From the NCBI GenBank assembly GCA_902805975.1, contig CADCUT010000056.1:1-44660 (forward strand): a stretch of 44,660 bases of DNA, given 5' to 3'. The position numbers and the translations under genes were made by a program. Source of the DNA: an uncultured Rubrobacteraceae bacterium. Lineage in GTDB: Bacteria > Actinomycetota > Rubrobacteria > Rubrobacterales > Rubrobacteraceae. A model generated the notes under the pieces. It made no database searches and was not told where the DNA came from. It saw only the letters and a list, made by a program, of their open reading frames with translations. Positions 2,881-44,660 of this stretch are shown here, in pieces; the first letter of the stretch is position 1; the number at the start of each line of letters is the position of its first letter.

Positions 2881-2923
2881 TTGGGCGTGCCCCGTCGGGC
2901 GTGCCCGCGCGGCCCCTCCGTCG

Positions 2924-2962
2924 TGCGCCTTTCGGGCCATTCTGGCCCCCGTCTGGCCGATC
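2924..2962 (+). repeat. Diverged copy of the dispersed repeat
   Basis: TGCGCCTTTCGGGCCATTCTGG ends in GCCGATC, matching the 30-bp repeat with substitutions and an internal expansion of about 9 bases. Like the two intact copies it lies shortly upstream of a gene (3017). Confidence 0.5.
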
Positions 2963-3016
2963 TGCACCTTTAAGCCCATGAAGCGCCGCCGCCGGGGCGG
3001 TAGGGTCGGGGCCGCT

Positions 3017-3652
3017 ATGTTCACCCCATGCAAAGGATGCGGGCACAGCCTGTGGGTGGAGGTCAGGAGCGCCGGAACGTTCCGCTTCCTGGCCCACTTC
3101 GACGACGACGAGGGCAGCCCCACCTACACCGAGCACTCCCCCTCCTGCCGCACGTGCGGCCTGAGGCTGGACGCGGCCCTCCCGCCGGGCTCCTCGAGCC
3201 CGGTGGGGGGACCGCCTGTCAGAGGGCACCCCGCCCCCGCCACGGTGATCGCCTCGCGGGTCCTCATCTCCATGGAGCCCCTTATGTATGCCGAGGCGCT
3301 CGCCGCCTCCGTCCTCGGACGTCGCCCCCACGCCGAGGTGACGCTCCTGGGCCCCTCGGAGAACCTCGCGGCCGGCGTAGGACGCGTCCGCCCGCACCTC
3401 GTCGTGGCCAACCGGGTGGCGCCGGGGGTGCGGGAGATCGTGGCCTCCTGGGCCGAGGTCGCTGTGCCGAGTTGGGGCGAGGGACCCAACGAGAAACCCA
3501 AGGGGCTAGCCGCGGAGATCGGCGTCGACGGGACCGCCACAAAGAGGGTGGTAGACCTCGGCACGGGAGACTTGTTGGCCGCGCTCGAGCGGGCCGAGGA
3601 GCTGCTCTTGGACCACGCCCGGGCAGACGCCCGGGGCGGGGGCGGGCCGTGA
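3017..3652 (+). CDS. Zinc-ribbon protein with a receiver-like C-terminal domain
   Basis: 211 residues. The first 55 contain two Cys pairs (C-K-G-C near residue 5 and C-R-T-C near residue 48), a likely zinc-binding ribbon. After a Pro/Gly linker, residues 72-205 resemble a response-regulator receiver fold (V-L-I-S-M-E-P-L-M-Y-A-E-A-L near the start and a LLAALERAEELL helix at the end). It lacks the DD pair, the phospho-acceptor Asp and the Lys, so it cannot be phosphorylated in the usual way. The stop overlaps the start of the response regulator (GTGA), so the two are co-translated and may interact. An in-frame ATG at 2978 is possible. The receiver similarity is my inference. Confidence 0.6.
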   Translation: MFTPCKGCGHSLWVEVRSAGTFRFLAHFDDDEGSPTYTEHSPSCRTCGLRLDAALPPGSSSPVGGPPVRGHPAPATVIASRVLISMEPLMYAEALAASVLGRRPHAEVTLLGPSENLAAGVGRVRPHLVVANRVAPGVREIVASWAEVAVPSWGEGPNEKPKGLAAEIGVDGTATKRVVDLGTGDLLAALERAEELLLDHARADARGGGGP

Positions 3653-31045: not shown

Positions 31046-32047
31046 GTGAACACTACGGGAACCGTAGGCTACGCGGCGATGTTCGAGCAGTTCCATCCGA
31101 CGGACCTGTTGGGGTGGTGCAAGACGGCAGAGGAGTCGGGGTTCTCGTCCGTGATGGCCTCCGACCACTTCCACCCGTGGACGCCCGAGCAGGGGGAGAG
31201 CGCCTTCGTGTGGAGCTGGATGGGCGCTCTGGGCGCGACGACCAACCTGCGCTTCGGGACCGGCGTCACGCCGCCGGGCTTCCGGTACCATCCCGCGATT
31301 ATCGCCCAGGCCGCCGCGACTCTAGAGGCCATGTACCCAGGGCGCTTCTGGCTCGGGCTCGGGGCCGGGGAGGCCCTCAACGAGCACGTCGTCGGCGAGT
31401 ACTGGCCGGAGGCCCCGACGCGGCTGCGCATCCTCATGGAGTCCATCGAGGTCATCAGGAGGCTCTTTACCGGCAAGGTCGTGAAATACACTGGGGACCA
31501 CATAAAGCTGGAGAGCGCGAGGCTCTACACCATGCCGGAGACGCCGCCCCCGATCTACGTGGCGACCGCCGGGCCGATCCAAAGTCGCCGCACCGGCGAG
31601 TTCTGCGACGGCATCATAACCGTGGGCGCCGCTGACGAGAAGATAAAGATGCTCATGGAGAAGTTCGAGGAGGGCGCCCGCCGCGCTGACAAGGACCCTT
31701 CCACGATGCCCCGCATGATACAGCTCCACGTCTCTTGGGCCGACAGCCAGCAGGAGGCCGAGGATCAGGCCGTCAAGGAGTGGCCCAACGGCGGGATGCC
31801 CTTCCCCAAGGGCGACATAAGAAATCCCGAGGACTTCGCCGCGATGGCGAAGCAGGTCTCCATCGAGAACTTCGCGAACCGCGTCCTGACCAGCGCCGAC
31901 CTCGACGAGCACCTCGAGCACGTCCAGCACTACGTGGAACTCGGCTTCGACGAAGTCTACGTCCACAACGTCGGCCGCAACCAGGAGGAGTTCATCCAGG
32001 CCTACGGCGAGCGCGTCATCCCCAAGCTGCGCTGGCCGGGGAGGTAG
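31046..32047 (+). CDS. F420-dependent luciferase-like oxidoreductase
   Basis: 333 residues from a GTG with GGAGGG upstream. Bacterial-luciferase-like TIM barrel: TVGYAAMFEQFHPTDLLGWCKTAEE, SVMASDHFHPWTPEQGESAFVWSWMGAL, GTGVTPPGFRYHPAIIAQAAATLEAMYPGRFWLGLGAGEALNEH. These match the TIGR03557-type F420-dependent G6PD-related group. The reaction is hydride transfer to or from F420; the substrate is unknown. An F420 user supports an actinobacterial host. It is probably monocistronic. Confidence 0.85.
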   Translation: MNTTGTVGYAAMFEQFHPTDLLGWCKTAEESGFSSVMASDHFHPWTPEQGESAFVWSWMGALGATTNLRFGTGVTPPGFRYHPAIIAQAAATLEAMYPGRFWLGLGAGEALNEHVVGEYWPEAPTRLRILMESIEVIRRLFTGKVVKYTGDHIKLESARLYTMPETPPPIYVATAGPIQSRRTGEFCDGIITVGAADEKIKMLMEKFEEGARRADKDPSTMPRMIQLHVSWADSQQEAEDQAVKEWPNGGMPFPKGDIRNPEDFAAMAKQVSIENFANRVLTSADLDEHLEHVQHYVELGFDEVYVHNVGRNQEEFIQAYGERVIPKLRWPGR

Positions 32048-32337
32048 CGTCCGCAAGGACCGACGAGGACACGTACGCTCGAACCCGGAGATCCGGCCTT
32101 CCAGGAGGCCCGAAGGACCTCTCGCTCGGCCCACCCGCCAACGTCGTCAGCGAGGAGTACGTTTTCGAGATCCAGACGGGGTGTGTCGGGGCGGACGCCA
32201 CTCCGTCTCCCGACATCCCTGGCCGGCGCCCGAGGGCACTCTTGAAACAGGTTGCGCCATACGATACAGTGCCCGCACCGTTTGCTAGGAATAGAGCAAG
32301 ATGTGGCGTTGGTAAACCGGGGAAGGGATAGATAGAT
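32048..32337. other. 290-bp spacer carrying the BCCT promoter
   Basis: No gene in the first 190 bases. Toward the transporter gene the DNA becomes AT-rich and includes the promoter listed separately. TAGGAATA at 32286-32293 also occurs at 40931-40938 in the second methylamine promoter. Confidence 0.5.
32234..32274 (+). promoter_or_regulatory. Promoter within an inverted repeat, for the BCCT transporter
   Basis: TTGAAA (32242-32247), 17-base spacer, TACAGT (32265-32270): a good housekeeping-type promoter. GGGCACT (32234-32240) and AGTGCCC (32268-32274) form a perfect 7-base inverted repeat around it, placing a repressor-type site over both elements. Confidence 0.55.
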
Positions 32338-33993
32338 ATGCAAAGGCCGGCAAGCCCGAGTGTAGACCCCACCGTGTTCTGGGTCGCGGCCGTTCTCTCG
32401 GCGGTGTTCGTGGCGTGGGGGGTGTTCTTCGCGGAGAGTTTGGCGGCCGTCTTCGACTCCGTCCTTTTCGGCTTTCTGGTGCCGAACTTCGGCTGGGTGT
32501 TCATCCTGTCGTCTTTCGGTTTTCTGGCTTTCTCGGTCTACCTGGCCTTTAGTCGCTACGGCAGGGTCAGGCTCGGCGGCGACGACGAGCAGCCGGAGTT
32601 CAGCACGGTGTCCTGGGTCGCGATGATGTTCAGCGCGGGGATGGGTATCGGGCTGATGTTCTTCGGGGTCGCGGAGCCCATGACCCACATGGGCGCTCCC
32701 CCGGGGGGAGCGGCTGAGCCCAACACCAGGGGTGCCGCCCAGGTCGCGATGGAGTACTCGTACTTCCACTGGGCGTTCCACCCGTGGGCTATCTACGCGA
32801 TCATGGGCCTGGCCCTCGCCTACTTCACTTTCCGCAAGGGGATGCCGAACCTCATAAGCACGGCGTTCCACCCGCTCCTCGGCGACAGGGTCTACGGGCC
32901 GGTCGGCAAGGCCATAGATATACTGGCGATCTTCGCCACCCTGTTCGGTTCGGCGACGTCGCTGGGTTTGGGGGCGTTGCAGATCAACGAGGGGCTCGAT
33001 GTCCTGTTCGGGTTCGGCGGGCGGGAGGCGGTGGGGCTTGCGATCGTGGTCATCGTCGTCCTTACCTTGTGCTTTATCGTCTCGGCGGTCAGCGGGGTGC
33101 ACCGCGGGATCCAGTGGTTGTCGAACACCAACATGGTCCTTGCGGTGTTTCTGCTGTTCTTCGTGTTCGTGTTGGGGCCGACGGTCTTTATCCTCGACAC
33201 CTTCGTGCAGTCCATCGGGGGCTACCTGGCGAACCTTATCCCGATGAGCTTCAGGACAGCCTCCTACGGGGACTCGGAGTTCGTATCGGGTTGGACCATC
33301 TTCTACTGGGCGTGGTGGATAAGCTGGGCGCCGTTCGTGGGCACCTTTATCGCCCGCATCTCGCGCGGTAGGACCATCCGGGAGTTCGTCGTCGGCGTGA
33401 TCCTCGTCCCGAGCGTGGTCAGCTTCGTGTGGTTCGCCATCCTCGGGGGTGCTGCCATCAACCTGCAACTCTCTGGAACCGCGAACATCGCCGACGCTGT
33501 GGCCGAGAGCCAGCCGGCGGCGCTCTTCGCCACCCTCGGCGCGTTCCCGCTCTCCGGCCTGATGTCCCTTATAGCCATAATCCTCGTAGCACTCTTCTTT
33601 ATCAGCGGGGCTGACGCGGCGGCGATGGTGATGGGCATGCTCTCGTCTAGGGGCGACATAAATCCCAGGGCGTGGACGGTCGTGGTGTGGGGCGTCTTTA
33701 CCGGGTCGGCGGCGGCGATCTGCCTGCTAGCCGGGGCGATACAGGGATCGGTGGACGCGGCGATAACCGCCCTCCAGTCGGTTGCTATCGCATCGGCGGC
33801 GCCGTTCGTGCTGATCCTGATCGGGCTGTGCTTCTCCCTCTTCAAGTCGCTGCGGACCGAGCGGCTGCCGGACCGACTCCCCGGGCCGTCGGCGCCGGAA
33901 CCTGGCAGGGCGATGTCCCGCCCCAGCGGGGCCCCCAACCCGCAGCAGATGTCCGCGGAGGGCCCCCAGGAACGCGACCAACGCCGCGCCTAG
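32338..33993 (+). CDS. BCCT family betaine/choline/carnitine transporter
   Basis: 551 residues with 12 expected membrane segments. Sodium-coupled BCCT signature: SAGMGIGLMFFGVAEPMTH (glycine motif as in BetP, not CaiT) and the Trp-rich WWISWAPFVGTFIARISRGRTIREF. Imports a quaternary ammonium compound such as glycine betaine or choline as osmolyte or carbon source. The C-terminal tail is short and only weakly basic, so osmosensing is uncertain. It lies upstream of the choline/methylamine genes, which suggests it supplies their substrate. The promoter is at 32242. Confidence 0.92.
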   Translation: MQRPASPSVDPTVFWVAAVLSAVFVAWGVFFAESLAAVFDSVLFGFLVPNFGWVFILSSFGFLAFSVYLAFSRYGRVRLGGDDEQPEFSTVSWVAMMFSAGMGIGLMFFGVAEPMTHMGAPPGGAAEPNTRGAAQVAMEYSYFHWAFHPWAIYAIMGLALAYFTFRKGMPNLISTAFHPLLGDRVYGPVGKAIDILAIFATLFGSATSLGLGALQINEGLDVLFGFGGREAVGLAIVVIVVLTLCFIVSAVSGVHRGIQWLSNTNMVLAVFLLFFVFVLGPTVFILDTFVQSIGGYLANLIPMSFRTASYGDSEFVSGWTIFYWAWWISWAPFVGTFIARISRGRTIREFVVGVILVPSVVSFVWFAILGGAAINLQLSGTANIADAVAESQPAALFATLGAFPLSGLMSLIAIILVALFFISGADAAAMVMGMLSSRGDINPRAWTVVVWGVFTGSAAAICLLAGAIQGSVDAAITALQSVAIASAAPFVLILIGLCFSLFKSLRTERLPDRLPGPSAPEPGRAMSRPSGAPNPQQMSAEGPQERDQRRA

Positions 33994-34002
33994 CGTTCGG
34001 AT

Positions 34003-34034
34003 TTCAGGGGACAGGATGGTCTTCGTCCCCTGAA
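34003..34034. terminator. Hairpin after the BCCT gene
   Basis: TTCAGGGGAC (34003-34012) and GTCCCCTGAA (34025-34034), a perfect 10-base stem with a 12-base loop, just downstream of the stop at 33993. There is no T run, so it could also be a repeat-family hairpin. Confidence 0.45.
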
Positions 34035-34132
34035 CCCCGGCCAGTAGTACGCGGCCCCCGGCACCGGGGGCCCGGAAGCGTGAACCGGCCGCGACGAGAC
34101 GTAACCCGCAGAGAGGGCCAGAAGGAGGAAGA

Positions 34133-34594
34133 ATGGGCAGAGCGCGCAATCCGTTCAGGGGACTCATAGACCACATGAGCGAGATGACCCGGATGCGGGA
34201 GTACGCCGAGGGCGGGGGGCAGGCACAGGAGGACCAGCGCAGAACCCACGCCACGGCGTGGGTACCTACCACCGACATATTCGCCAGGGGCAGCGATCTG
34301 GTGATCCGGTGCGAGCTCGCCGGCGTGTACCAGGAGGACATAGACGTCTCGCTCGCCAACGGCGTGCTGAGCATATCCGGCGAGCGCAGGAGCGAGCTGG
34401 AGGGGGAGGAGGTGGAGTTCTACACCCGGGAGCGCTTCTTCGGGCACTTCCGGCGCACCATCAACCTGCCCGAAGGCGTCTCCGAGAGCAAGATGGACGC
34501 CGGGTTCGTGAACGGCCTGCTGGAGATCACCATAGAGGGCGGCGCCAACCTGCCGGAGCCCCGGCGCGTCCGGATCCGAAGCCAGGTCGATTGA
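34133..34594 (+). CDS. Hsp20/alpha-crystallin small heat shock protein
   Basis: 153 residues. The alpha-crystallin domain (about 40-145) is clear: WVPTTDIFARGSDLVIRCELAGVYQEDIDVSLANGVLSISGERR, FFGHFRRTINLPEGVSESKMDAGFVNGLLEITI. ATP-independent chaperone holding unfolded proteins in large oligomers. A C-terminal IXI motif is not obvious. AGGAGG lies just before the ATG. No HAIR or CIRCE operator is seen upstream. Isolated between the transporter and the IclR gene. Confidence 0.93.
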   Translation: MGRARNPFRGLIDHMSEMTRMREYAEGGGQAQEDQRRTHATAWVPTTDIFARGSDLVIRCELAGVYQEDIDVSLANGVLSISGERRSELEGEEVEFYTRERFFGHFRRTINLPEGVSESKMDAGFVNGLLEITIEGGANLPEPRRVRIRSQVD

Positions 34595-34952
34595 GCTGGC
34601 CGGACCCCGGGCGATTCTCCGATGATCCGCATCTCTTTGGGTCCGGGCGGCAACCCCGCGGGCGGGAGAGGCGGAGTGCGCCGCTCAACGCGCCCGTCAG
34701 GAGGCGATGAGCCTGTTAACCGGCGAGCGTCAGCGGACCGGAGGCTGCGCGGTCCAAAAGGCAACGGCGCCGCCCACGGTTACCCACCTCAAGATCGAGC
34801 GTAGGCTCAGAGCAGCGGCGCGTTTGCTCTGATAGAGGCGGCGGTAGCCGACGCGGAAGCATAGAGGTAGCCCTCGTCCGGAGCGGCAAGCGGGGCTTGA
34901 TGTGGTATTGTCAACGGATTATGGGTTTCGTGTCAGATCCCGGACGGTTCTC
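34595..34952. other. 358-bp spacer before the IclR gene
   Basis: No gene. A weak promoter, TTGATG (34897-34902), 17 bases, TATGGG (34920-34925), overlaps an alternative GTG start at 34902, which favours starting translation at 34953. TTGTCAA (34908-34914) is a small palindrome similar in type to TTGACACAA at 35936. Confidence 0.4.
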
Positions 34953-35723
34953 GTGCTGAAAACGGTTGACCGCGCGTTGAGGCTTTTGCTGCTCTTCGAT
35001 GAGATCGATCGGGAGTACCGGGTTGGCGAGATAGCAAGCATGCTCGGCACTGACAAGAGCATCGCGTCCCGCCTGGCCGCCACGCTGGCCAAACGGGGGT
35101 TCCTCGAGCGGGCCCCGGGGAGCGAGGCCTTCCGGCTGGGTCCCGAGTTCGTCCGCCTCGGTATGCTCGCAGCGTCCAGCAGCCAGAACATGGTCGAACT
35201 GGCCAGGGTGCCAATGGAGAGGTTGGCCGAAGAGACGGGGGAGACGGTCAACCTGGCCCGCCTCGAGGACGGCAAGACCGTCAACATCGCCCAGGCCGAC
35301 GGGCCGCGTCTGGTCGGTGTTGGAGACTGGATCGGCTGGAGAACGGAGCCGCACACCACCGCAAACGGCAAGGTGCTGCTCGCGTTTATGGAAGACCCTA
35401 TAGGGACCCTCAACCTGCAAGATCCCCTAGAAGCGGTTACGGAACAGACGATCACCAGCGTCGCCGAACTTCGCTCCGAGCTCGAGCGCGTCAGATCCGA
35501 GCGCGCGGCCTTCACCATCGGCGAGCTCGAGGACGGGTTCAACGGCGTCGCGGTCCCCGTCCTGGACACGTCGGAACGCTGCCTGACCGTCCTTAGCGTC
35601 TCGGGGCCGGAGTACCGAATGCCCCCGGAACGCCTACCGGAGGTCGCCGCCCTCAGTAAGGCTGCCGCCGAGGACATCAGCGCCCGTCTGGGGAGAATCC
35701 CGCAGCGCGTCCTGCAACTCTGA
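34953..35723 (+). CDS. IclR family transcriptional regulator
   Basis: 256 residues from GTG (34953); a GTG at 34902 is in frame but lies in the promoter. N-terminal winged helix: VDRALRLLLLFDEIDREYRVGEIASMLGTDKSIASRLAATLAKRGFLER. C-terminal GAF-like effector domain (about 80-245): ETVNLARLEDGKTVNIAQADGPR, EPHTTANGKVLLAF, VAVPVLD. These regulators often sit beside and control catabolic operons. The next operon begins 606 bases downstream with a palindromic promoter; it is the most likely target. Effector unknown, perhaps choline or betaine-like. Confidence 0.9.
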   Translation: MLKTVDRALRLLLLFDEIDREYRVGEIASMLGTDKSIASRLAATLAKRGFLERAPGSEAFRLGPEFVRLGMLAASSSQNMVELARVPMERLAEETGETVNLARLEDGKTVNIAQADGPRLVGVGDWIGWRTEPHTTANGKVLLAFMEDPIGTLNLQDPLEAVTEQTITSVAELRSELERVRSERAAFTIGELEDGFNGVAVPVLDTSERCLTVLSVSGPEYRMPPERLPEVAALSKAAAEDISARLGRIPQRVLQL

Positions 35724-35933
35724 TCTAACGCGGCCCGCGCCCACCGCCCGGCCTACGCCGCTTGTCGGGGGCACCCGCCGGGCAACCCCCGCCCGACCGG
35801 CCCCAAACCGTCCGTACCCCTTCCTCCACCCTTTGCGGCCAACGGCGGGTGGGGTTCCCACCGGAACACTCGACGGTTCGCATGGCGCAACCCGGCGCTT
35901 CTTTTCGAACACGCCACCGAAATCCGAGAGGCT

Positions 35934-36002
35934 TATTGACACAATACCAGCTATGTGATAGAAGTTGGTTAATGAGCAACTGGTGCACAGTTCGCAACAT
36001 AG
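35934..36002 (+). promoter_or_regulatory. Promoter and operator module P1, shared with P2 at 40893
   Basis: TTGACA (35936-35941), 17 bases, TAGAAG (35959-35964). The -35 lies in the palindrome TATTG-ACA-CAATA (35934-35946). TATGT is at 35952. Downstream, GGTGCAC (35982-35988), four bases, CGCAACA (35993-35999) occurs with the same spacing in P2, 23 bases after the -10. AACTG-N5-CAGTT (35978-35992) overlaps it. The position downstream of the start favours repression. Confidence 0.65.
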
Positions 36003-36277
36003 ACGACGCGGTGGCGGCCGCGTCGTGGGGGCCGTCCGGCGACGCGTCTCGTGCGTGGGACGGTAACGCCTTCGGTCTGCTGCAGAGGTGGACAAAGGTG
36101 TTCAGGCGCGAGCTCGTTCGGTTCCTGTTGCTCCTGTTTTGTTGGGCTGCCGGACCTGACAGGCTGGTTCGTCGGGGCCGCATGCTCTGGTGGTCTCACG
36201 GGGCTTTCGGCAACAAGGGGTGCCTGTTCGGCGCGCAGTACCTCGCCGGGCGCCGCGCCCCGCCTTTCCTGCGTTAG
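35972..36277 (+). CDS. Possible leader ORF (101 aa), weak
   Basis: An ATG lies one or two bases after the predicted start of transcription, so it would be leaderless. The product is Trp- and Arg-rich with one hydrophobic run (VRFLLLLFCWAAG). Codon use is less GC-biased than that of neighbours. The operator motif is inside its first codons. It might be a chance ORF in a long leader; I list it only because the leader is otherwise unexplained. Confidence 0.2.
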   Translation: MSNWCTVRNIDDAVAAASWGPSGDASRAWDGNAFGLLQRWTKVFRRELVRFLLLLFCWAAGPDRLVRRGRMLWWSHGAFGNKGCLFGAQYLAGRRAPPFLR

Positions 36278-36330
36278 GAGCCGGCACAGGCGTCTATCAG
36301 GGCGCACAGAGCCTCAACGCAGGAGGATAC

Positions 36331-37815
36331 ATGCAAGACCAAGCTCGCCCCAACGTCGTGGTCATCGTTGCGGACACCTTCCGCCGGGACCATCTGGGGG
36401 CGTACGGCAACCCGTACATACACACGCCGAACCTCGACGCCTTCGCGCGTTCGTCGGTGGTGTTCGACCAGCACGTCATCTCTTCGTTCCCCACCATGCC
36501 TGCCAGGGCGGACATGCTTACGGGGAACTTCTCCTACACCTTCATGGGCTGGGAGCCCCTGTGGTTGACCCTGCACACGCTGCCGGGGCTCCTGTCATCG
36601 GCCGGGTACACGACGATGGGCATCGTGGACACACCGTACTTTGTCCGCAACCGGTTCGGTTACGACAGGGGCTTCGACGACTTTATCTGGGTGAGGGGGC
36701 AGGGGGACGACACCAGGCCCCACGAGCGCTCCGACTACCGCTCGACGTGGAGGTCGGAGTCCGACCGGCTCGTGGCGCGGACGATGACCGAGGCCGAGGG
36801 GTGGCTGGAGCGCCACCACGACGAGCAGTTCTTCCTGTACGTCGACACGTGGGACCCGCACGAGCCCTGGGACGCGCCCGAGTACTACACCGCCAAGTAC
36901 AGGCCCGGCTACGGCGGGCGCCAGATCTACCCCAGCTACGCGAACTGGAGGGAGGCCGGCCTCGAGGAAGACGACGTGGACCTCGCCCACGCGACGTACT
37001 GCGGCGAGGTGACGATGGTTGACTTCTGGATCGGCCGTCTACTGGCGAAGCTGGACGCGCTGAACCTGACGGACAACACCATCGTCTTCTTCGCCTCGGA
37101 CCACGGCTTCTACTTCGGCGAGCACGACTTTTTCGGCAAGGCCGAGTGGCTCAACACGCTCGACGCGGGGATCATAGACATCGCGCAGAACGCCAACGTG
37201 CCGGCGTGGCTCAGGGAGTCGTGGTTGCTGACCGTCGGCTGGTCGCCGCTCTACCAGGAGCTCACGAGGGTTCCCCTGATCGCGCGCGTCCCGGGGATGG
37301 AGCCTGGCCGCCGCTCGGCGATGACGACCGCGCCCGACCTTACGCCCACCATCCTCGAGTTGACGGGCATCGAGCGCCCTGGGCCCGAGGCTATGCAGGG
37401 GAGCTCGTTCGCGGACGTGCTCACCGGAAGACGGGATGAGCACCGGCCGTTCGTGGTCAGCTCGTGGCCGCTGTACTTCGCGGAAGGCGAGATGACCACC
37501 GCCGTGGATTCCCGGCCCCGGCGCATCGCGAGCTACATGCCGATCACCATCACCACCCCCGAGAGGTCCGTGATCCTCGGCGGGCCGACGGACACGCCGG
37601 AGATGTACGACCTGACCACCGACCCGCACGAGCAGGTCGACATCTGGGCCTCGCACGTCGACGAGGGCCGGGCCCTCATAGCCGACGCGATCTCGTTCAT
37701 GGAGCAGCAGGGGGCACCGGCGGAGTACCTGGAGCCCAGGAGGCAGGCCCTGGAGCGCGCCGCGGCTGACCCCGAACCGGTCTCCGCCAACCCCGGCGAG
37801 CCTTCGGAGGGTTAG
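36331..37815 (+). CDS. Sulfatase-like hydrolase with Thr at the nucleophile position
   Basis: 494 residues of the alkaline-phosphatase/sulfatase fold. Metal ligand Asp15 in VVIVADTFRRDHLG; the C-terminal site has FASDHGFYFGEHDFFGK (Asp257, His258, Lys270). Where sulfatases have Cys or Ser for formylglycine (C/S-x-P-x-R), this protein has T-M-P-A-R (Thr55 to Arg59) followed by ADMLTG. Thr cannot become formylglycine, but it is the nucleophile in phosphodiesterase and phosphotransferase branches of this superfamily (NPP, LtaS). With GMC and aldehyde dehydrogenase genes next, it may release choline from a phospho- or sulfo-ester. The ATG has GGAGG upstream. First gene of the operon. Confidence 0.85.
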   Translation: MQDQARPNVVVIVADTFRRDHLGAYGNPYIHTPNLDAFARSSVVFDQHVISSFPTMPARADMLTGNFSYTFMGWEPLWLTLHTLPGLLSSAGYTTMGIVDTPYFVRNRFGYDRGFDDFIWVRGQGDDTRPHERSDYRSTWRSESDRLVARTMTEAEGWLERHHDEQFFLYVDTWDPHEPWDAPEYYTAKYRPGYGGRQIYPSYANWREAGLEEDDVDLAHATYCGEVTMVDFWIGRLLAKLDALNLTDNTIVFFASDHGFYFGEHDFFGKAEWLNTLDAGIIDIAQNANVPAWLRESWLLTVGWSPLYQELTRVPLIARVPGMEPGRRSAMTTAPDLTPTILELTGIERPGPEAMQGSSFADVLTGRRDEHRPFVVSSWPLYFAEGEMTTAVDSRPRRIASYMPITITTPERSVILGGPTDTPEMYDLTTDPHEQVDIWASHVDEGRALIADAISFMEQQGAPAEYLEPRRQALERAAADPEPVSANPGEPSEG

Positions 37816-37817
37816 CC

Positions 37818-39356
37818 ATGGACCATACGGCGGAATTCGACTACCTCGTCCTCGGCGGCGGCACGGCGGGGGCCGTTGTGGCCGCCCGCCTCGCCGAGGA
37901 CCCCGAGACGAGCGTGTGCCTGGTAGAGGCCGGGCCATCCGACGAGGGAGACTGGCGGATACTCGAGCTCTGGAACTGGGTCAACCTGCTCGGCACGGAG
38001 CTCGACTACGACTACTTGATCGAGCCGCAGGAGCGGGGGAACGGCCTGATCCGTCACAGCCGCGGCAAGATGCTCGGCGGCTGCAGCTCGCACAACTCGG
38101 CCATCGCCTTCCGCACCCCGGACGTGGACCTGAGGATCTGGGAGAGGGCCGGCGCCACGGGCTGGGGGCCCGAGGATGCGCATCCGTACTTCGAGAGGCT
38201 CTTCGACCGCGTCAACATCGAGACGGTCTTTCCCGGCAACACCTGCTCCGAGGCCTTCGTGGCGGCGGCCCGGCAGGCCGGCTTCCCGCCCATCCGCTTT
38301 AACGAGGAGGAGCTCAGGGAGGGGGTGGGGTGGCTCCAGCTCAACGCGCGCGGGGCCATCCGGCAGTCGAGTTCGGTCGCCTACCTCCACCCCATCGGCG
38401 AGCTGCCGCCGAACCTCACGCTCCTGACGGATACAAAGGTCGACCGCATCCTCATCGACGACCACGGCGACGCGGTGGGCGCAGAGACTGACCGGGGCAC
38501 CATCCGCGCCCGTCGCGAGGTCGTCGTCTGCTGCGGCGCCTTCGACACGCCGAAGCTCCTTATGCTCTCCGGGATCGGCCCGGCTGACCACCTCTACGAC
38601 GTCGGCGTTCCGGTCGTGGCCGACGTGCCAGGCGTGGGCGAGCACCTCCTGGACCATCCCGAGGGGGTGGTGATGTGGGAGGCGACGAGGCCCGTACCCA
38701 CGATGTCGCGCCAGGGCTGGGAGGCGGCGCTTTTTGCCCGCACCGACCCTTCGGCCGGGGAGCCGGACGTGATGTTCCACTTCGGCACCAGCGCCTTCGA
38801 TCTCAACACTGTTCAACTCGGCTACCCGACCGCCGAGCAGGCGTTCTGCCTTACCCCGAACGTGATGCGCGCCAGGAGCGAGGGGGTCGTGCGGCTGCGC
38901 TCCGGGGACCCGGCGACCCCGCCCCTTATAGACTTCCGCTACTTCACGGACCCCGAAGGGTACGACGACCGGGTCATAACCGAAGGCGTCAAGCTCGCGC
39001 GCGCCATCGCCGCACAGCCTGCCCTTAGGCCCTGGGTCAAGCGCGAGCTCGCCCCCGGACCCAACGTCAGGACGGACGAGGAGATCTCCGAGTACGCCCG
39101 CCGCACGGCGAACACCGTCTACCACCCCGCGGGCACCTGCCGGATGGGTGCGGCGGACGACCCCGGCGCCGTGGTCGACCCGCAGCTGCGCGTCCGGGGT
39201 GTCGGCCGGCTGCGCGTCGCGGACGCCTCCGTCTTCCCGACCATGATAGGGACCAACCCCTGCATCACCTGCATGATGATCGGGGAGAAGTGCGCGGACC
39301 TCGTGAAGGAAGCGGCGCTCCCCACACCGCTGGCTGAAAGGAACCTCGTTATATGA
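37818..39356 (+). CDS. GMC oxidoreductase, choline-dehydrogenase-like
   Basis: 512 residues. FAD motif LVLGGGTAGAVVAARLAE, second GMC signature HSRGKMLGGCSSHNSAIAFR, and the catalytic C-terminus VYHPAGTCRMGA (His) with MIGTNPCITCMMIGEKCADLV (Asn). Oxidises an alcohol to an aldehyde, most likely choline to betaine aldehyde given the aldehyde dehydrogenase next door and the flavoprotein operon downstream. Length is slightly under BetA (about 550). It starts 3 bases after the previous stop and overlaps the next gene by four bases (ATGA). Other alcohols, such as polyethylene glycol types, remain possible. Confidence 0.85.
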   Translation: MDHTAEFDYLVLGGGTAGAVVAARLAEDPETSVCLVEAGPSDEGDWRILELWNWVNLLGTELDYDYLIEPQERGNGLIRHSRGKMLGGCSSHNSAIAFRTPDVDLRIWERAGATGWGPEDAHPYFERLFDRVNIETVFPGNTCSEAFVAAARQAGFPPIRFNEEELREGVGWLQLNARGAIRQSSSVAYLHPIGELPPNLTLLTDTKVDRILIDDHGDAVGAETDRGTIRARREVVVCCGAFDTPKLLMLSGIGPADHLYDVGVPVVADVPGVGEHLLDHPEGVVMWEATRPVPTMSRQGWEAALFARTDPSAGEPDVMFHFGTSAFDLNTVQLGYPTAEQAFCLTPNVMRARSEGVVRLRSGDPATPPLIDFRYFTDPEGYDDRVITEGVKLARAIAAQPALRPWVKRELAPGPNVRTDEEISEYARRTANTVYHPAGTCRMGAADDPGAVVDPQLRVRGVGRLRVADASVFPTMIGTNPCITCMMIGEKCADLVKEAALPTPLAERNLVI

Positions 39357-40807
39357 TCACGACCAAGGACTACCCCATGTACGTGGCGGGAGAGTGGACG
39401 GACTCCGAGTCCGACGCCCGCATGGACGCGACGAGCCCCGCCACGGGGGAGAAGATAGGTACCGTCCCCCAGGGCACCCGCGGGGACGTCAGGCGCGCCA
39501 TAAAGGCCGCGAACGACGCCTGGGGCTCGTGGGCCAACCTCTCGGCCTTCGAGCGGGCGGCGGCGATGGGGCGCGTCGCGGAGATCATCGAGGAGCGCCG
39601 CGAAGACCTGGCCCGGACCCTGACCCTGGATCAGGGCAAACCTTTAGAGGCCGAGGCCTACGACGAGGTGGACGAGCTCGTCGAGTACTTCACGATGGCC
39701 GCCGCCGAGACCACGCGCCTCGAAGGCTCGATGCCGCCCTCCGTCCACGCGGACAAGCGGGTTCTGCTCTACAGGGTCCCGCGCGGGGTGGTCGGTATCA
39801 TCAGCCCCTGGAACTGGCCGTACACGATGCCGGCCGAGATGCTCGCACCGGCCCTGGCTTCCGGGAACGCGGTCGTCTGGGTGCCCGCCCCCTCGACGTC
39901 CGTATGCGCCGTAAAGCTCGCAGAGTGCATCGTGGACGCCGGGCTGCCCGCCGGCGTCTTCAACGTGGTCTGCGGCCCCGGGGCGGAGGTCGGGGACGAG
40001 GTGGCGGTTAACCCCGGCACCCAGGCCATCGGGTTTATCGGGTCCATCGAGACCGGGCAGAGGGTGGCGGCCCGCGCCGCGGGCAAGGCCCTCCTCCTGG
40101 AGATGGGCGGCAACGGGCCTATGGTGATCCTGGACGACGCCGACCTTGCCGTCGCCGCCGAAGAGAGCCTGACCTCGGCCTTCCTGGGCGCCGGCCAGAG
40201 CTGCACCGCGGGCGAACGCTTCCTGGTCCACGAGAGGGTCTACGACGCCTACCTTGAAGAACTGGGGCGCGCGATGGAGCGCGGGGTCAGGCTCGGCGAC
40301 CCCTTCGACCCGACGACCACGCTCGGCCCGCTCAACAACGAACCGACCGCCCAGAAGATGGACGGGCATATCTGGGACGCGCTCGAAAGCGGCGCCGAGC
40401 TGATCTCCGGCGGCTCCCGCGCGCCCGGCTTCCCCACGGACCTCTACTACCAGCCGACGGTCCTGGGCAACGTCAGCCCCAACATGCGCGTCTCGAAGGA
40501 GGAGACCTTTGGCCCGATAATCCCCGCCACCGTCATCGGCAGTGAGGAGGAGGCGATAAGGACGATCAACTCCTCCCCCTACGGCCTGCTCTCCGCCGTC
40601 TTCACCGGGGACCTGAAGCGCGGCCTGCGCTTCGCCGAAAGCGTGCGAACCGGTTGGGTCAACATCAACGCCTCCTCGAACCACTGGGAGAGCCACCTTC
40701 CCTTCGGCGGGAGGGCGGGGTCGATGTCCGGCGTGGGACGCGTCGGCGGACGCTACGCGATGGAGACCTTCACCGAGTTCAAGACCGTCATCCTGAACCT
40801 GGGCTGA
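39353..40807 (+). CDS. Aldehyde dehydrogenase, betaine-aldehyde-dehydrogenase-like
   Basis: 484 residues of the NAD(P)-dependent ALDH fold: ISPWNWPYTMPAEMLAPALASGN, catalytic Glu in LLLEMGGNGPMVILDDADL, catalytic Cys in GAGQSCTAGERFLVH, and SKEETFGPIIP. Converts an aldehyde to the acid, here probably betaine aldehyde to glycine betaine. Its ATG overlaps the stop of the GMC gene, a tight translational coupling. Last gene of the three-gene operon; a GC palindrome follows at 40848. Confidence 0.88.
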   Translation: MITTKDYPMYVAGEWTDSESDARMDATSPATGEKIGTVPQGTRGDVRRAIKAANDAWGSWANLSAFERAAAMGRVAEIIEERREDLARTLTLDQGKPLEAEAYDEVDELVEYFTMAAAETTRLEGSMPPSVHADKRVLLYRVPRGVVGIISPWNWPYTMPAEMLAPALASGNAVVWVPAPSTSVCAVKLAECIVDAGLPAGVFNVVCGPGAEVGDEVAVNPGTQAIGFIGSIETGQRVAARAAGKALLLEMGGNGPMVILDDADLAVAAEESLTSAFLGAGQSCTAGERFLVHERVYDAYLEELGRAMERGVRLGDPFDPTTTLGPLNNEPTAQKMDGHIWDALESGAELISGGSRAPGFPTDLYYQPTVLGNVSPNMRVSKEETFGPIIPATVIGSEEEAIRTINSSPYGLLSAVFTGDLKRGLRFAESVRTGWVNINASSNHWESHLPFGGRAGSMSGVGRVGGRYAMETFTEFKTVILNLG

Positions 40808-40847
40808 CGTGAAACGGGACGCCCCCACGCGCCGCCGCCCGGTACCA

Positions 40848-40865
40848 CCCCGGCGGCCGCCGGGG
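40848..40865. terminator. GC palindrome after the aldehyde dehydrogenase gene
   Basis: CCCCGGCGGCCGCCGGGG, an 18-base perfect palindrome 41 bases after the stop. No T run follows, only GCAGGAAAATT, so terminator function is likely but not certain. Confidence 0.5.
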
Positions 40866-40892
40866 GGCAGGAAAATTGGCGAGTAGGACGCC

Positions 40893-40977
40893 TTGACTCA
40901 GATGCGGACGTATGTTACTAGTGCCGCATATAGGAATAAGGTGCACGATGCGCAACAGACAAGGTTCACGACGAACC
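40893..40977 (+). promoter_or_regulatory. Promoter and operator module P2, shared with P1 at 35934
   Basis: TTGACT (40893-40898), 17 bases, TACTAG (40916-40921); TATGT at 40911; then GGTGCAC (40940-40946), four bases, CGCAACA (40951-40957), matching P1. ATGCGG (40902-40907) and CCGCAT (40924-40929) form an inverted repeat over the -10. GGTTC-N5-GAACC (40963-40977) follows. Controls the flavoprotein gene at 41049. Confidence 0.65.
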
Positions 40978-41048
40978 CCGATCGGAAGGTCTTGGCAGGT
41001 TCTTTCTAGATCGCGCGGGGCGACGGCGGGGCGGACGGAGGTTTAGCT

Positions 41049-43496
41049 GTGGAAGACAGGGCGGGCGTCGTGGTCATCGGGGCCGGCATCGTCGGGTGCA
41101 GCGCAGCGGCGCATCTGGCGGGGCTCGGGTGGCGGGACGTCGTCGTCTTGGATCAGGGGCCGCTCTTCGAGGCCGGCGGCTCGACCTCGCACGCCCCGGG
41201 GCTCGTCTTCCAGACCAACCCGTCCAAGACGATGACGCAGCTCGCGGCCTACGGCGTGAAACGGTACTCGGAGTTGGAGTCGGACGGCGAACCCTGCTTC
41301 TACCCTGTAGGAAGCATCGAGGTCGCGACGACGCCGGAGCGCTGGACGGACTTGAAGCGGAAGCACGGGATAGCGACCTCCTGGGGGCTGGAGTCCGGGC
41401 TGCTCTCGCCCGAAGAGTGCGCCGAGAAGAGCCCGCTCCTGGACCCGAAGGAGATCCTGGGCGGCTTCTACGTCCCCTCCGACGGGCTCGCCAAGGGCGT
41501 GAGGGTGAGCGAGGCGATGGCCCGGGAGGCCAAGGGCCTCGGCGCGAAGTTCTACGGCGAGACCGAGGTGACGGGTATAGAGGTCAGGGACGGGCGCGTC
41601 AGGGCGGTCGAGACCTCGCGGGGGCGGATAGAGACCGAGCATGTCCTGAGCTGCGCCGGGATGTGGGGCCCCAGAATCGGGCGGATGGCGGGGGCGTTCG
41701 TGCCGCTCCTGACGCCGATGCAGCACCAGTACGCCTGGACCACGCCGGTGCCGGGGCTGGAGGCCGTCTCGGATGAGGCGGACCACGTCATCGTCAGGCA
41801 CCAGGACAACGCCATGTACTTCCGCCAGCACGGGGAGCGGTACGGGATCGGCTCCTACAAGCACCGCTCGATGCCCGTGACGCCGGACGAGATCCCACGG
41901 AAGCACCTCCCGAACGGGGAGATGCCCTCGCTCATGCCTTTCACGCCGGAGGACTTCGAGGGACCGTGGGAGGAGTCGCGGAGGCTGATGCCCGCGCTGG
42001 GCGGTGCGGGGATAGAGCGGGGCATAAACGGGCTCTTCTCCTTCACGCCGGACGGCGGGTCGCTGCTCGGCGAGTCGAGGGAGGTGCGCGGGTTCTGGAT
42101 GGCGGAGGCCGTGTGGGTAACCCACGCGGCGGGGGCTGCGAGGATGATCGCCGAGTGGATGACAGACGGCGCCCCGAGCATCGACCCGGCAGGTGTCGAC
42201 GTCCACCGCTTCGACGAGTTCCAGAAGAGCCCCTCCTACGTGCTCGCCCGCTCCTCGCAGGCCTTCCAGGAGGTCTACGACATCATCCACCCCCAGCAGC
42301 CCATGGAGGAGCCGCGCCCCCTGCGCACAAGCCCCTTCTATCCGCGCCAGCGGGAGCTCGGCGCGTACTTTCTCGAGGCCTCCGGCTGGGAGCGTCCGCA
42401 GTGGTACGGGGCCAACGAGTCGTTGCTCGCCGACTACGACGTCCCCGAGATGGGGGAGTGGGCCGGACGCTACTGGTCGCCCATCGTCGGGGCCGAGCAC
42501 CTCGCCACCCGCGAGAGGGTGGCCCTCTACGACATGGCCTCGCTCAAGAAGGCCGAGGTCACCGGCCCCGGGGCGCTGGAGTTTCTGCAGGGGCTCAACA
42601 CCAACCAGCTAGACAAGCCCGTTGGCAGCGTCACCTACACCCTGATGCTCGACGGGAAGGCGGGTGTGAGGAGCGACATCACCGTCGCCCGGCTCGGGGA
42701 GAGCCACTTCCAGCTCGGCCTCAACGGGCCGCGGGACATCGAGTGGATGGGGCGTCACCTGCCGGCCGACGGCTCCGTGCAGGTGCGGGACATCTCCGGC
42801 GGGACCCTCTGCGTAGGGCTCTGGGGGCCGCAGGCCAGGGAGCTCCTGCAGGAGCTCAGCCCCGACGACCTCTCCAACGAGGCGTTCGGGTTCTTCAAAG
42901 TTAGGCGCATCTACGTCGGCGAGGTGCCCGTCGTCGCCATGCGGGTCTCCTACGTCGGCGAGCTCGGGTGGGAGCTCTACGCCTCGGCGGAGATGGGCCT
43001 CAGGCTCTGGGACCTCCTGTACGAGGCGGGGCGTCCGCTCGGTGTGATCGCGGGCGGCCGGGGGGCTTTCAGCGGCCTCAGGCTGGAGAAGGGCTACCGT
43101 TCGTGGGGTGCGGACATGACCTCGGAGCACGACCCCTACGAGGCCGGTCTCGGCTTCGCGGTCAAGCCGGAGAAGGGCGATTTCGTCGGCAGGGAGGCGC
43201 TGCTGCGCCGCCAGGAGGAGGGGCCGCGGCGCAAGCTCACCTGCCTGCTGCTCGACGACCCCGGGGTGGTGGTCATGGGCGGCGAGCCCGTGTACGCCGA
43301 AGGCGCGCCCGTCGGCTACGTCACAAGCGCTGCCTACGGGTACTCCATCGGGCAGAGCATCGCCTACGCCTGGCTGCCGCCGGGGCTCTCGGAGGAGGGG
43401 CAGAAGGTCGAGGTCGCGTACTTCGGCGGGCGCCACGCAGCGACCGTCGCCGAGGAGCCGCTCTTCGACCCGGCGATGAAGCGGATGCGGAGCTAA
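41049..43496 (+). CDS. Dimethylglycine/sarcosine dehydrogenase-like flavoprotein with GcvT domain
   Basis: 815 residues from a GTG with GGAGG upstream. The N-terminal DAO-type domain has VIGAGIVGCSAAAHLAGLG and the covalent-flavin site GGSTSHAPGLVFQTN (His). Residues 430-815 form an aminomethyltransferase (GcvT) folate domain: VTGPGALEFLQGLNTNQ, VSYVGELGWELY, SGLRLEKGYRSWGADMTSEHDPYEAGLGF, DFVGREALL. Oxidises N-methyl groups of dimethylglycine or sarcosine, passing the one-carbon unit to tetrahydrofolate. The two-domain length is typical. Which of the two substrates it prefers is not decided by the sequence. First gene of the second operon. Confidence 0.9.
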   Translation: MEDRAGVVVIGAGIVGCSAAAHLAGLGWRDVVVLDQGPLFEAGGSTSHAPGLVFQTNPSKTMTQLAAYGVKRYSELESDGEPCFYPVGSIEVATTPERWTDLKRKHGIATSWGLESGLLSPEECAEKSPLLDPKEILGGFYVPSDGLAKGVRVSEAMAREAKGLGAKFYGETEVTGIEVRDGRVRAVETSRGRIETEHVLSCAGMWGPRIGRMAGAFVPLLTPMQHQYAWTTPVPGLEAVSDEADHVIVRHQDNAMYFRQHGERYGIGSYKHRSMPVTPDEIPRKHLPNGEMPSLMPFTPEDFEGPWEESRRLMPALGGAGIERGINGLFSFTPDGGSLLGESREVRGFWMAEAVWVTHAAGAARMIAEWMTDGAPSIDPAGVDVHRFDEFQKSPSYVLARSSQAFQEVYDIIHPQQPMEEPRPLRTSPFYPRQRELGAYFLEASGWERPQWYGANESLLADYDVPEMGEWAGRYWSPIVGAEHLATRERVALYDMASLKKAEVTGPGALEFLQGLNTNQLDKPVGSVTYTLMLDGKAGVRSDITVARLGESHFQLGLNGPRDIEWMGRHLPADGSVQVRDISGGTLCVGLWGPQARELLQELSPDDLSNEAFGFFKVRRIYVGEVPVVAMRVSYVGELGWELYASAEMGLRLWDLLYEAGRPLGVIAGGRGAFSGLRLEKGYRSWGADMTSEHDPYEAGLGFAVKPEKGDFVGREALLRRQEEGPRRKLTCLLLDDPGVVVMGGEPVYAEGAPVGYVTSAAYGYSIGQSIAYAWLPPGLSEEGQKVEVAYFGGRHAATVAEEPLFDPAMKRMRS

Positions 43497-43506
43497 GGAG
43501 AACGTC

Positions 43507-44463
43507 GTGATCCGGACCCGTCAACCAGGCCAGGCCCGAACCACGCCCGCCGACGTGCTCGACGCCATAGGGAACACCCCCCTGATAGAGCTCGAAGGCG
43601 TCCACGTAAAACTCGAGTACCTGAACCCCTCAGGCTCCATCAAGGCCCGCATCGCGAAGTACATGGTCGAGAAGGCAGAGGGCGAGGGCCTGCTAAAGCC
43701 CGGCGACACCATCGTCGAGGCGACGAGCGGCAACACGGGCAACGCCCTCAGCATGGTCGCCGCGGTGAAGGGTTACAAGATGCTCGTCGTCATGCCCACG
43801 GGCCTAAGCGGGGAGCGGATCGCCATAAGCCGGGCTCTGGGAGCCGAAGTCCTGGAAGTCGGGCACTTCCACGTCAACGAGGCGCTTGAGAAGGCCAGGG
43901 AGCTCGGCCGGCAGGACGGCTACTTCAACCCGGCCCAGTTCGACAACGAGTGGAACGTGGAGGAGAACCGCACCTGGCTGGGGCCGGAGATACTCGGTCA
44001 GCTGCCCGAGGGCGTGGTGCCCGATGCCCTGGTCATGGGCGTAGGCACGGGTGGCACGCTCGTCGGCGTGGGCCAGGCGTTCCGGGAGGTCAACCCAAAC
44101 GTCCGCCTCTACGCGATGGAGCCCGACGAGTCGTGCACGATCCTGTGCGGGGAGGTCGGGGAGCACTTGGTGGAGGGGATCTCCGACGGCTTCGTCCCCG
44201 GCATCTTCGAGCGGCACCGGGATCTTGTGGACGGGGTCTACCCGGTGAGCTCAGAGGAGGCCGTCGGGGAGATGCGCCGGTTGGCCCGGGAGCACGGGCT
44301 CTTCGTGGGGCCTTCGAGTGGGGCGAACCTGGTGGCGGCGCGGCGCGTGCGCGGGGAGCACCCGGAGCTGGAGCACGTCGTCACCCTGTTCTGCGACGAG
44401 GGCGAGAAGTACATAAGCGAGCACTTCGGAGGCGCAAAGGGAGGCAGAGATGCGACGAAGTAG
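43507..44463 (+). CDS. Cysteine-synthase-like PLP enzyme
   Basis: 318 residues of the fold-type-II PLP family: NTPLIELEG, LEYLNPSGSIKARIAKYMVEK (Schiff-base Lys), ATSGNTGNALSMVAA (phosphate/Asn loop), GVGTGGTLVGVGQAF, and GPSSGANLVAARR. Could make cysteine from O-acetylserine, but paralogues act on other beta-substituted amino acids; the usual N-P-x-G-S-x-K-D-R reads N-P-S-G-S-I-K-A-R. It is 10 bases after the flavoprotein gene with AAGGAGA upstream, so it is part of that operon. Its role there is unclear: perhaps linking glycine/serine formed by demethylation to cysteine. Confidence 0.85.
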   Translation: MIRTRQPGQARTTPADVLDAIGNTPLIELEGVHVKLEYLNPSGSIKARIAKYMVEKAEGEGLLKPGDTIVEATSGNTGNALSMVAAVKGYKMLVVMPTGLSGERIAISRALGAEVLEVGHFHVNEALEKARELGRQDGYFNPAQFDNEWNVEENRTWLGPEILGQLPEGVVPDALVMGVGTGGTLVGVGQAFREVNPNVRLYAMEPDESCTILCGEVGEHLVEGISDGFVPGIFERHRDLVDGVYPVSSEEAVGEMRRLAREHGLFVGPSSGANLVAARRVRGEHPELEHVVTLFCDEGEKYISEHFGGAKGGRDATK

Positions 44464-44540
44464 CTGAGAACCCACAGCAGGCGAAGCGTAAGAGCGGCCT
44501 CCGACAAGGTCGCGGCAAACCAGGAAAGGAGATATCCGCT

Positions 44541-44660
44541 ATGGCGGTAAACGACAACCCGGGTATCCTGCAGTACACGAGGTTATTCAAGTCCCCGTAC
44601 TTCTACGGCTCGCGCCAGCACGGGGTCCAGAAGTACAGCGTCTACAACCACCACTACCAC
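44541..44660 (+). CDS. Aminomethyltransferase/GcvT-DmdA-like gene, cut off by the window edge
   Basis: Only the first 40 codons are visible: MAVNDNPGILQYTRLFKS, then PYFYGSRQHGVQKYSVYNHHYH. The SPYFYGS...YSVYNHHYH pattern opens folate-dependent aminomethyltransferase-family proteins of the GcvT/DmdA type. AAAGGAGA lies 8 bases before the ATG. It follows the cysteine-synthase-like gene by 77 bases in the same direction, fitting further one-carbon handling. Identification from so short a stretch is tentative. Confidence 0.6.
   Translation, partial: MAVNDNPGILQYTRLFKSPYFYGSRQHGVQKYSVYNHHYH

Follow-up and report, generated by a model that had tools for sequence, protein, structure and literature searches.

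The Arg-Ala-Pro-Pro (RAPP) sequence at the ends of small upstream open reading frames (uORFs) is an established arrest motif, and the ApdA and ApdP peptides that carry it have been studied by cryo-electron microscopy (PMC10951233). In the copper sensor CruR of Bordetella, RAPP lies three residues from the end and the peptide acts through Rho (PMC9426467), while for an RGPP motif the ribosome, once stalled, opens a stem that hides the Shine-Dalgarno sequence further down (PMC10987492). A 2025 survey covering 52,895 genomes reported that RAPP is rarer than AAPP, lies nearer to the ends of small proteins and precedes diverse genes, and it predicts many more RAPP arrest targets (PMC12992588). The locus described here belongs to an uncultured Rubrobacteraceae bacterium and is contained in a stretch of 44,660 nucleotides (contig CADCUT010000056.1, positions 1 to 44,660, hereafter the window). 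In it, an operon for a sulfatase-like hydrolase and choline-type oxidation would be controlled at two levels, namely by a promoter/operator module shared with a demethylation operon and by a uORF whose RAPP tail would arrest the ribosome. We assign to this two-layer control a probability of roughly 0.68, with the stalling, its signal and the regulator all being predicted. Earlier RAPP arrest peptides monitor protein export and copper, and the present one would be a family-wide candidate before a catabolic, osmolyte-type operon. Class-wide counts refer to 39 genomes of the class (G numbers), 9 of them in the genus of the window, whose source genome (G000) is an 82%-complete assembly of 3,528,030 bases.

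The sulfatase-like gene starts at 36331, more than 300 bases beyond its promoter, and a 101-codon reading frame lies in between, which the earlier sequence-only reading of this DNA had missed:
35972 to 36277, forward strand: uORF of 101 codons, possibly leaderless, ending in GAQYLAGRRAPPFLR and the stop codon, with its start near the predicted transcription start
36254 to 36265, forward strand: RAPP codons, the proposed arrest site

The length of this uORF is identical in G000, G002, G004 and G005, and the differences among the four closest genomes, summed over the six pairs, number 78, 61 and 147 at codon positions 1, 2 and 3. A search with the window uORF found relatives in 16 of the 39 genomes, distributed over 8 genera, and a 14-row profile of the tail (A1) added G038 (2.1e-9) and G028 (3.3e-5), both with GxQYRAGRRAPP; weaker matches at E >0.01 (seven rows, in G005, G008, G017, G023 and G035) were not counted. 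The tail GxQY[LR]AGRRAPP is thus found in 18 of the 39 genomes, always directly upstream of a sulfatase-like gene, whose N-terminus follows within 87 bases in every one of them. RAPP lies near the C-terminus of all 18 uORFs, and 2-5 codons before the stop in 16. In its typical form the tail reads WWSxGAFxxxGxLEGxQY[LR]AGRRAPP at the end of a frame of about 84-108 codons, and in G028 and G038 it is conserved from G-12 onward only. At 15 loci, 13 of the 25 final residues are invariant (W-25, G-22, A-21, G-12, Q-10, Y-9, A-7, G-6 and RRAPP), and the codons beneath them vary, with five for Arg-5, four for Ala-3 and three for Gly-6. In agreement with selection on the peptide, pairwise differences in the last ten codons amount to 516 synonymous versus 36 non-synonymous (15 loci, with G026 dropped as a near-copy and G028 and G038 outside the set).

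Such conservation at the amino-acid level, together with the fixed gene order, would also suit a small working protein that depends on its tail and whose translation is coupled to that of the hydrolase, with no arrest involved. We regard this as unlikely, because it is the tail alone that is conserved (identity of 31% in the N-terminal parts versus 77% in the tail among eight representatives) and RAPP is only a few codons away from the stop, where arrest motifs are known to lie. Likewise, the uORF protein has no relative in PDB (best E 0.74), no Pfam match better than E 0.094 and no NCBIfam match, and therefore no family above cut-off. A signal peptide or transmembrane segment is a frequent feature of RAPP peptides that monitor export; by hydropathy alone (best 19-residue segment), the values here range from 0.1 to 1.9 in 11 uORFs, such a segment being clearest in G025 and G027 and weak in G006 and G008.

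Among 30 sulfatase-like loci inspected, 12 carry the tail, 10 lack a RAPP frame, 2 (G022 and G023) show RAPP in another context and 6 were left unparsed when the script gave no start, 4 of these six being known from other data. Since many sulfatase-like loci lack the tail, the uORF is tied to one regulatory context and not to the enzyme. A non-exhaustive scan of a collection of 84,980 species returned 11 loci labelled Rubrobacter, Rubrobacteraceae or unplaced actinobacteria, which correspond to 11 of the 18 genomes. The RAPP readings of G022 and G023 (L171 and L169) were not counted, the tail being absent; they are unlike frames with ..G[HY]RAPPG.. at nearly equal distance before the sulfatase-like gene, and may be either a diverged arrest peptide or chance. 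In G028 (L267, about 2900-3320) the tail is intact and a sulfatase-like N-terminus follows, yet the homology found starts at residue 93, and this hydrolase copy may be frameshifted.

The end of the uORF is also a candidate partner of the downstream ribosome-binding site:
36268 to 36323, forward strand: proposed stem, formed by CCTGCGTT (36268-36275, the final codons plus the stop) and its complement AACGCAGG (36316-36323)
36321 to 36326: Shine-Dalgarno AGGAGG of the sulfatase-like gene, overlapped by the AACGCAGG arm

Matching arms written in other letters occur in other genera (CTGCGTCGGT/ACCGACGCAG in G019, CCTCCGG/CCGGAGG in G025 and CTGATCT/AGATCAG in G027). In pairing tests from which G026 and G022 were left out, uORF ends bind their own Shine-Dalgarno regions better than exchanged ones, the observed value being reached by 24 of 20,000 permutations with 17 loci and by 10 of 20,000 with 12; a further test gave 207 of 20,000 for 10 loci, one per genus, and 66 of 20,000 for 8. 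Against shuffled uORF ends, 11 of 17 loci reach 0.05. When 18 leaders were folded, the unpairedness of the Shine-Dalgarno sequence did not exceed 0.34 in any of the 16 that carry the conserved tail, versus 0.76 in G023 and 0.54 in G022. These models support the stem without settling it, and its release by the ribosome is clearly predicted in a minority of leaders.

The other level of control would reside in the promoter/operator module, the elements of which are the following:
35936 to 35964, forward strand: predicted sulfatase-operon promoter TTGACA-N17-TAGAAG, conserved in four genomes and at a similar position in other genera
35982 to 35999, forward strand: operator copy 1
40893 to 40921, forward strand: predicted demethylase-operon promoter TTGACT-N17-TACTAG
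40940 to 40957, forward strand: operator copy 2
32242 to 32270, forward strand: predicted BCCT promoter TTGAAA-N17-TACAGT, a block conserved in G000, G004, G005, G006 and G008
32251 to 32267: operator-like GTTGCGCCATACGATAC, in and beside the BCCT promoter spacer
35875 to 35892, no strand assigned: further operator-like site GGTTCGCATGGCGCAACC, lying 107 bases before operator copy 1

Here, demethylase is a label for the dimethylglycine/sarcosine-dehydrogenase-like gene at 41049 to 43496, whose activity is predicted from its sequence. The sequence-only reading had described TTGAC(A/T), a -10-like element and the operator in the same order before both operons, and all of these were found as it stated: TTGACA at 35936 and TTGACT at 40893, separated from the operators by TATGTGATAG and TATGTTACTAG, and a gap to the operator of 24 or 23 bases when TATGTG or TATGTT is read as the -10. 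We place the predicted -10 hexamers 17 bases after the -35 (TAGAAG at 35959-35964 and TACTAG at 40916-40921), since relatives keep TGnTA at that distance; the transcription start sites are likewise predicted. GGTGCAC-N4-CGCAACA has its sole exact matches, in the window and in the whole source genome, at the two operator copies. With up to 3 mismatches the window contains 6 matches versus 4.04 expected, and only the exact pair therefore stands out. At the scale of the G000 genome, a 2-mismatch search (15+15 matches versus 29+40 for the reversed control) and another relaxed form (10+7 versus 6+7) gave chance levels, so that only exact or composite patterns are informative. The identity of the two copies at 14 of 14 bases, also noted earlier, is true of the window's genome only: the demethylase site starts with AGTGCGC, TGTGCGC or TATGCGC in G004, G005 and G002, whose sulfatase site keeps GGTGCAC. 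Within the genus, exact matches occur in G000, G002 and G005, and the single ones of G002 and G005 precede the small reading frame and the sulfatase-like gene.

In alignments of close relatives, the upstream regions consist of conserved islands amid poorly alignable spacers. These islands read TTGACA..TGTGATA.AAGTTGGT..GGTGCACAGTT.GCAAC before the sulfatase operon and, in most relatives, TTGACT..TATGTTACTAGTGCCG..RTGCGCNATRCGCAAC before the demethylase, with GTTGCGCTATGCGCTACAG before BCCT and GGTTCGCATGGCGCAACC between IclR-A, an IclR-type gene described below, and the sulfatase operon. A composite pattern (TTGACN{9,16}TGNTANNNGN{16,34}AYRCGCAAC) has 18 matches in 16 of the 39 genomes and none for the reversed control. 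All 18 precede the expected operons: 13 the demethylase (cut by a contig end in G002), 4 the uORF with the sulfatase-like gene and 1, in G013, the DmdA-like/MTHFR/FTHFS operon, which follows the demethylase in other genomes and is separate from it there. The pattern was designed from known sites, so that matches at those genes are not independent and the absence elsewhere is the informative part. A relaxed module lies upstream of 18 of 23 demethylase genes, 10 of 17 uORFs and none of 12 sulfatase-like genes that lack the conserved tail, and the 9-base core ATRCGCAAC upstream of 12 demethylase genes, 11 uORFs and no tail-less sulfatase-like gene (shuffled controls 0-0.4%; G028 was left out of the uORF set, and a second, 44%-identical demethylase-like gene of G011 out of the demethylase genes). 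All 17 uORFs carry one or the other. The operator itself is an imperfect palindrome, roughly GNTKCRYNATRCGCAAC; among 28 aligned sites, whose last five bases GCAAC follow from the search criterion, C occupies column 5 in 26, and T occupies column 10 in 27 and column 3 in 23. Accordingly, the claim that the two operons are switched together is well supported, and binding of a regulator to these sites is predicted.

Operator copy 1 sits within codons 4-10 of the conserved small reading frame, CGC AAC falls in the uORF frame at the majority of loci, and in several the uORF could start at ATGCGCAAC. What is read as an operator upstream of the hydrolase might then be mere coding sequence of the uORF (M/I/V-R-N), which is very improbable because identical bases lie out of frame in G011 and G013 and recur upstream of the demethylase, equally far from a similar promoter. 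A coding origin was likewise rejected for the demethylase-operon site, where the ATG-led frame of the window leader has no ATG in G005 (judged by eye). Under the two-layer control, by virtue of the overlap between the operator and the uORF start, both regulatory layers would be stacked on the same 30 bases. A permissive Rfam search of 31500-44660 revealed no riboswitch, with three miRNA matches under their cut-offs.

Two operator-like sites had escaped the sequence-only reading, at 32251-32267 within the predicted BCCT promoter and at 35875-35892, and both recur in relatives. The latter is found in all four genomes aligned (G000, G002, G004 and G005), with one base different in G002. Similar second sites lie upstream of the uORF site in G024 (L105, near 1219) and G011 (L107, near 1267), and together with that of the window they hint at paired operators. 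Sulfatase-like genes without the uORF (L173, L174, L175, L183, L184, L186 and L191) have another promoter context with a GTAGACAA-like box near the start codon, which suggests a second regulator for these paralogues.

As to the protein that would bind the operator, the adjacent IclR gene had been named as its natural regulator:
34902 to 35723, forward strand: IclR-A, Pfam IclR_C 1.5e-34, under all NCBIfam cut-offs, likely start nearer 34953

Orthologues of IclR-A (at least 68% identity) are present in 7 of the 39 genomes (G000, G002, G004, G005, G006, G009, which is partial, and G034), three more search matches at 40% being IclR-B-like. Transcriptional control alone, exerted by IclR-A on both sites, would agree with its position next to the first operon in G000, G002, G004, G005 and G006, with the presence of the uORF in 6 of its 7 genomes (6 of 17 uORF genomes, p = 0.019) and with the 35875 site, all four aligned genomes carrying IclR-A. 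This model is distinctly unlikely, given that its orthologues are so restricted, that G008 keeps the BCCT and demethylase sites and has no IclR-A, and that the uORF tail is left unexplained. The co-occurrence of the motif with this regulator, which the sequence-only reading had proposed to look for, was found with the uORF and not with the demethylase (p = 0.38, 39 genomes), so that the case for IclR-A is weak.

A second gene, IclR-B, 34-40% identical to IclR-A, shows a much wider association. It is present in 22 of the 39 genomes, among them 22 of the 23 with the demethylase and none of the 16 others (p = 4.5e-10), G010 having the demethylase alone, and in 15 of 17 uORF genomes (p = 0.00048). 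IclR-B closes a cluster ordered demethylase, DmdA-like, MTHFR, FTHFS, GcvT-like and N-methyltryptophan/sarcosine-oxidase-like, and it stands between the two operons in G008, G019, G022, G023 and G028. For the family as a whole, IclR-B is the more probable regulator, with its binding predicted from these associations; IclR-A, a local addition, is a possible one where present, and some other protein is also possible. The two need not bind alike, since they differ (KSIASRLAATL in IclR-A, KSTAYRLLTTL in IclR-B) at what we take to be the recognition helix. Both match the models of BhcR, AllR, KdgR and PcaR under the curated cut-offs. As in IclR-family regulons, a short palindromic site lies at the promoter, where binding is predicted, whereas the targets differ from those of these four, being choline-type oxidation, demethylation and C1-folate genes.

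Since the first operon opens with a conserved RAPP-ended small reading frame, transcriptional regulation probably does not account for its control in full. The shared control proposed by the sequence-only reading stands, its attribution to IclR-A is doubtful, and the picture is incomplete without the putative arrest peptide. In the two-layer control, a TTGAC-N17-TAnnnG promoter and the conserved imperfect palindrome just past the start site would co-regulate the choline-oxidation-type and demethylation/C1-folate operons, joined by the BCCT transporter via the site inside its promoter, and an IclR-type dimer would sit on the operator and obstruct RNA polymerase until displaced by a metabolite of the pathway. 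The uORF peptide, conserved in sequence and position, would add a translational step in which its tail stalls the ribosome at the RAPP prolines. If no stall occurred, the codons after RAPP, together with the stop, would base-pair with the Shine-Dalgarno region that serves the sulfatase-like gene, while a stalled ribosome would cover one arm of the stem, freeing the Shine-Dalgarno sequence for translation of the operon. The nascent peptide might itself sense the substrate or product, with the tail aromatics (W -26/-25 and Y -9 from the last Pro) caging a quaternary amine in the tunnel, so that choline or betaine would set or release the stall. This aromatic cage is highly doubtful, G038 being without the WW pair and G028 having one W.

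Several findings weigh against the two-layer control. Over the whole uORF, the four closest genomes show 104 synonymous versus 119 non-synonymous codon differences, so that its front is weakly constrained, and RAPP is followed by nine codons in G038 and by 32 in G003. In G003 (an assembly of 640 contigs), where module and uORF are both present, the searches found no demethylase and neither of the two IclR genes. A -35 of TTGAC type is absent at the expected place in 7 of 17 uORFs, and even the relaxed module is absent at 5 of 23 demethylase genes (G013, G020, G021, G026 and G027). Regarding the stem, 6 of 17 loci (G002, G003, G005, G011, G023 and G038) remain within shuffles at 0.05, and the groups with and without uORF overlap in Shine-Dalgarno unpairedness (0.15 versus 0.31 at 15 and 9 loci, p = 0.018; of 28 loci, two were unscored and two counted apart). 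Once the ribosome-covered stretch is removed, the Shine-Dalgarno sequence becomes at least 0.48 unpaired in 6 of 16 leaders (G000, G004, G005, G011, G026 and G027), and most of the others refold it onto another partner. This refolding would be in line with a real arrest of the CruR kind, a peptide with like RAPP placement that works through Rho (PMC9426467), in which the stalled ribosome would keep Rho off the leader with no opening of a stem. We hold it for a possible but minor alternative, as the preference of uORF ends for their own Shine-Dalgarno regions speaks against it.

Compared with the described systems, the two-layer control would share with ApdA and ApdP, which precede secDF, the arrangement of small upstream frame, C-terminal RAPP and presumably controlled downstream gene (PMC10951233). 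It differs from them in its target, a catabolic operon instead of protein export, in uORFs that by hydropathy show no clear localisation signal and in a tail conserved over about 26 residues, a stretch that would sit inside the ribosome tunnel. As in CruR, RAPP is about three residues from the end and the target is metabolic rather than export (PMC9426467), whereas there is no common CXXC pattern and a Shine-Dalgarno stem is proposed here in place of Rho. The proposed stem opened by a stalled ribosome recalls the SecM-secA leaders (PMC10987492), with RAPP in place of RAGP, another tail and another target. Literature searches gave no match for Rubrobacter with a uORF or arrest peptide, nor for IclR together with dimethylglycine, sarcosine and choline, and nothing relevant among the matches listed for arrest peptides with sulfatase, ribosome stalling with a choline leader peptide or a Rubrobacter regulator with glycine betaine and choline. 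None of the main texts of PMC10951233, PMC12992588 and PMC10987492 uses the term sulfatase; the figure graphics and supplements of PMC12992588, which could list this group, lie outside this statement. Which signals nascent chains sense becomes testable in these leaders, for example in that of Rubrobacter taiwanensis (L130).

The genes under this putative control, and one neighbour, are:
32338 to 33993, forward strand: BCCT transporter gene, Pfam BCCT 5.8e-190, NCBIfam betaine BCCT 624.9 bits (cut-off 650)
36331 to 37815, forward strand: sulfatase-like hydrolase with SSFPTMPAR, Pfam Sulfatase 1.6e-49
37818 to 39356, forward strand: GMC oxidoreductase, choline-dehydrogenase-like, under the betA cut-off
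39353 to 40807, forward strand: aldehyde dehydrogenase, betaine-aldehyde-dehydrogenase-like, under cut-offs
41049 to 43496, forward strand: dimethylglycine/sarcosine-dehydrogenase-like gene (demethylase), DAO, FAO_M and GCV_T
43507 to 44463, forward strand: PLP enzyme, cysteine-synthase-like

The release of choline from an ester, as suggested earlier for the hydrolase, is unproven. The protein scores 91.7 bits against the choline sulfatase model TIGR03417, under its cut-off of 433.45, and T-M-P-A-R is found in all 26 hydrolase sequences printed of 28. The sulfatase signature, which we take to be C/S-x-P-x-R, would start with Cys or Ser where SSFPTMPAR has Thr, and the substrate is therefore equally likely to be a phosphoester or a sulfate ester. 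In the window, the operon runs from hydrolase through GMC oxidoreductase to aldehyde dehydrogenase, and in G008 and G006 an iron-containing alcohol dehydrogenase occupies the GMC slot (L089:6207-7577 and L091:5739-6986). Unrelated dehydrogenases in one slot point to a single step, plausibly that from choline to betaine aldehyde, and the iron-containing enzyme presumably resembles GbsB of Bacillus.

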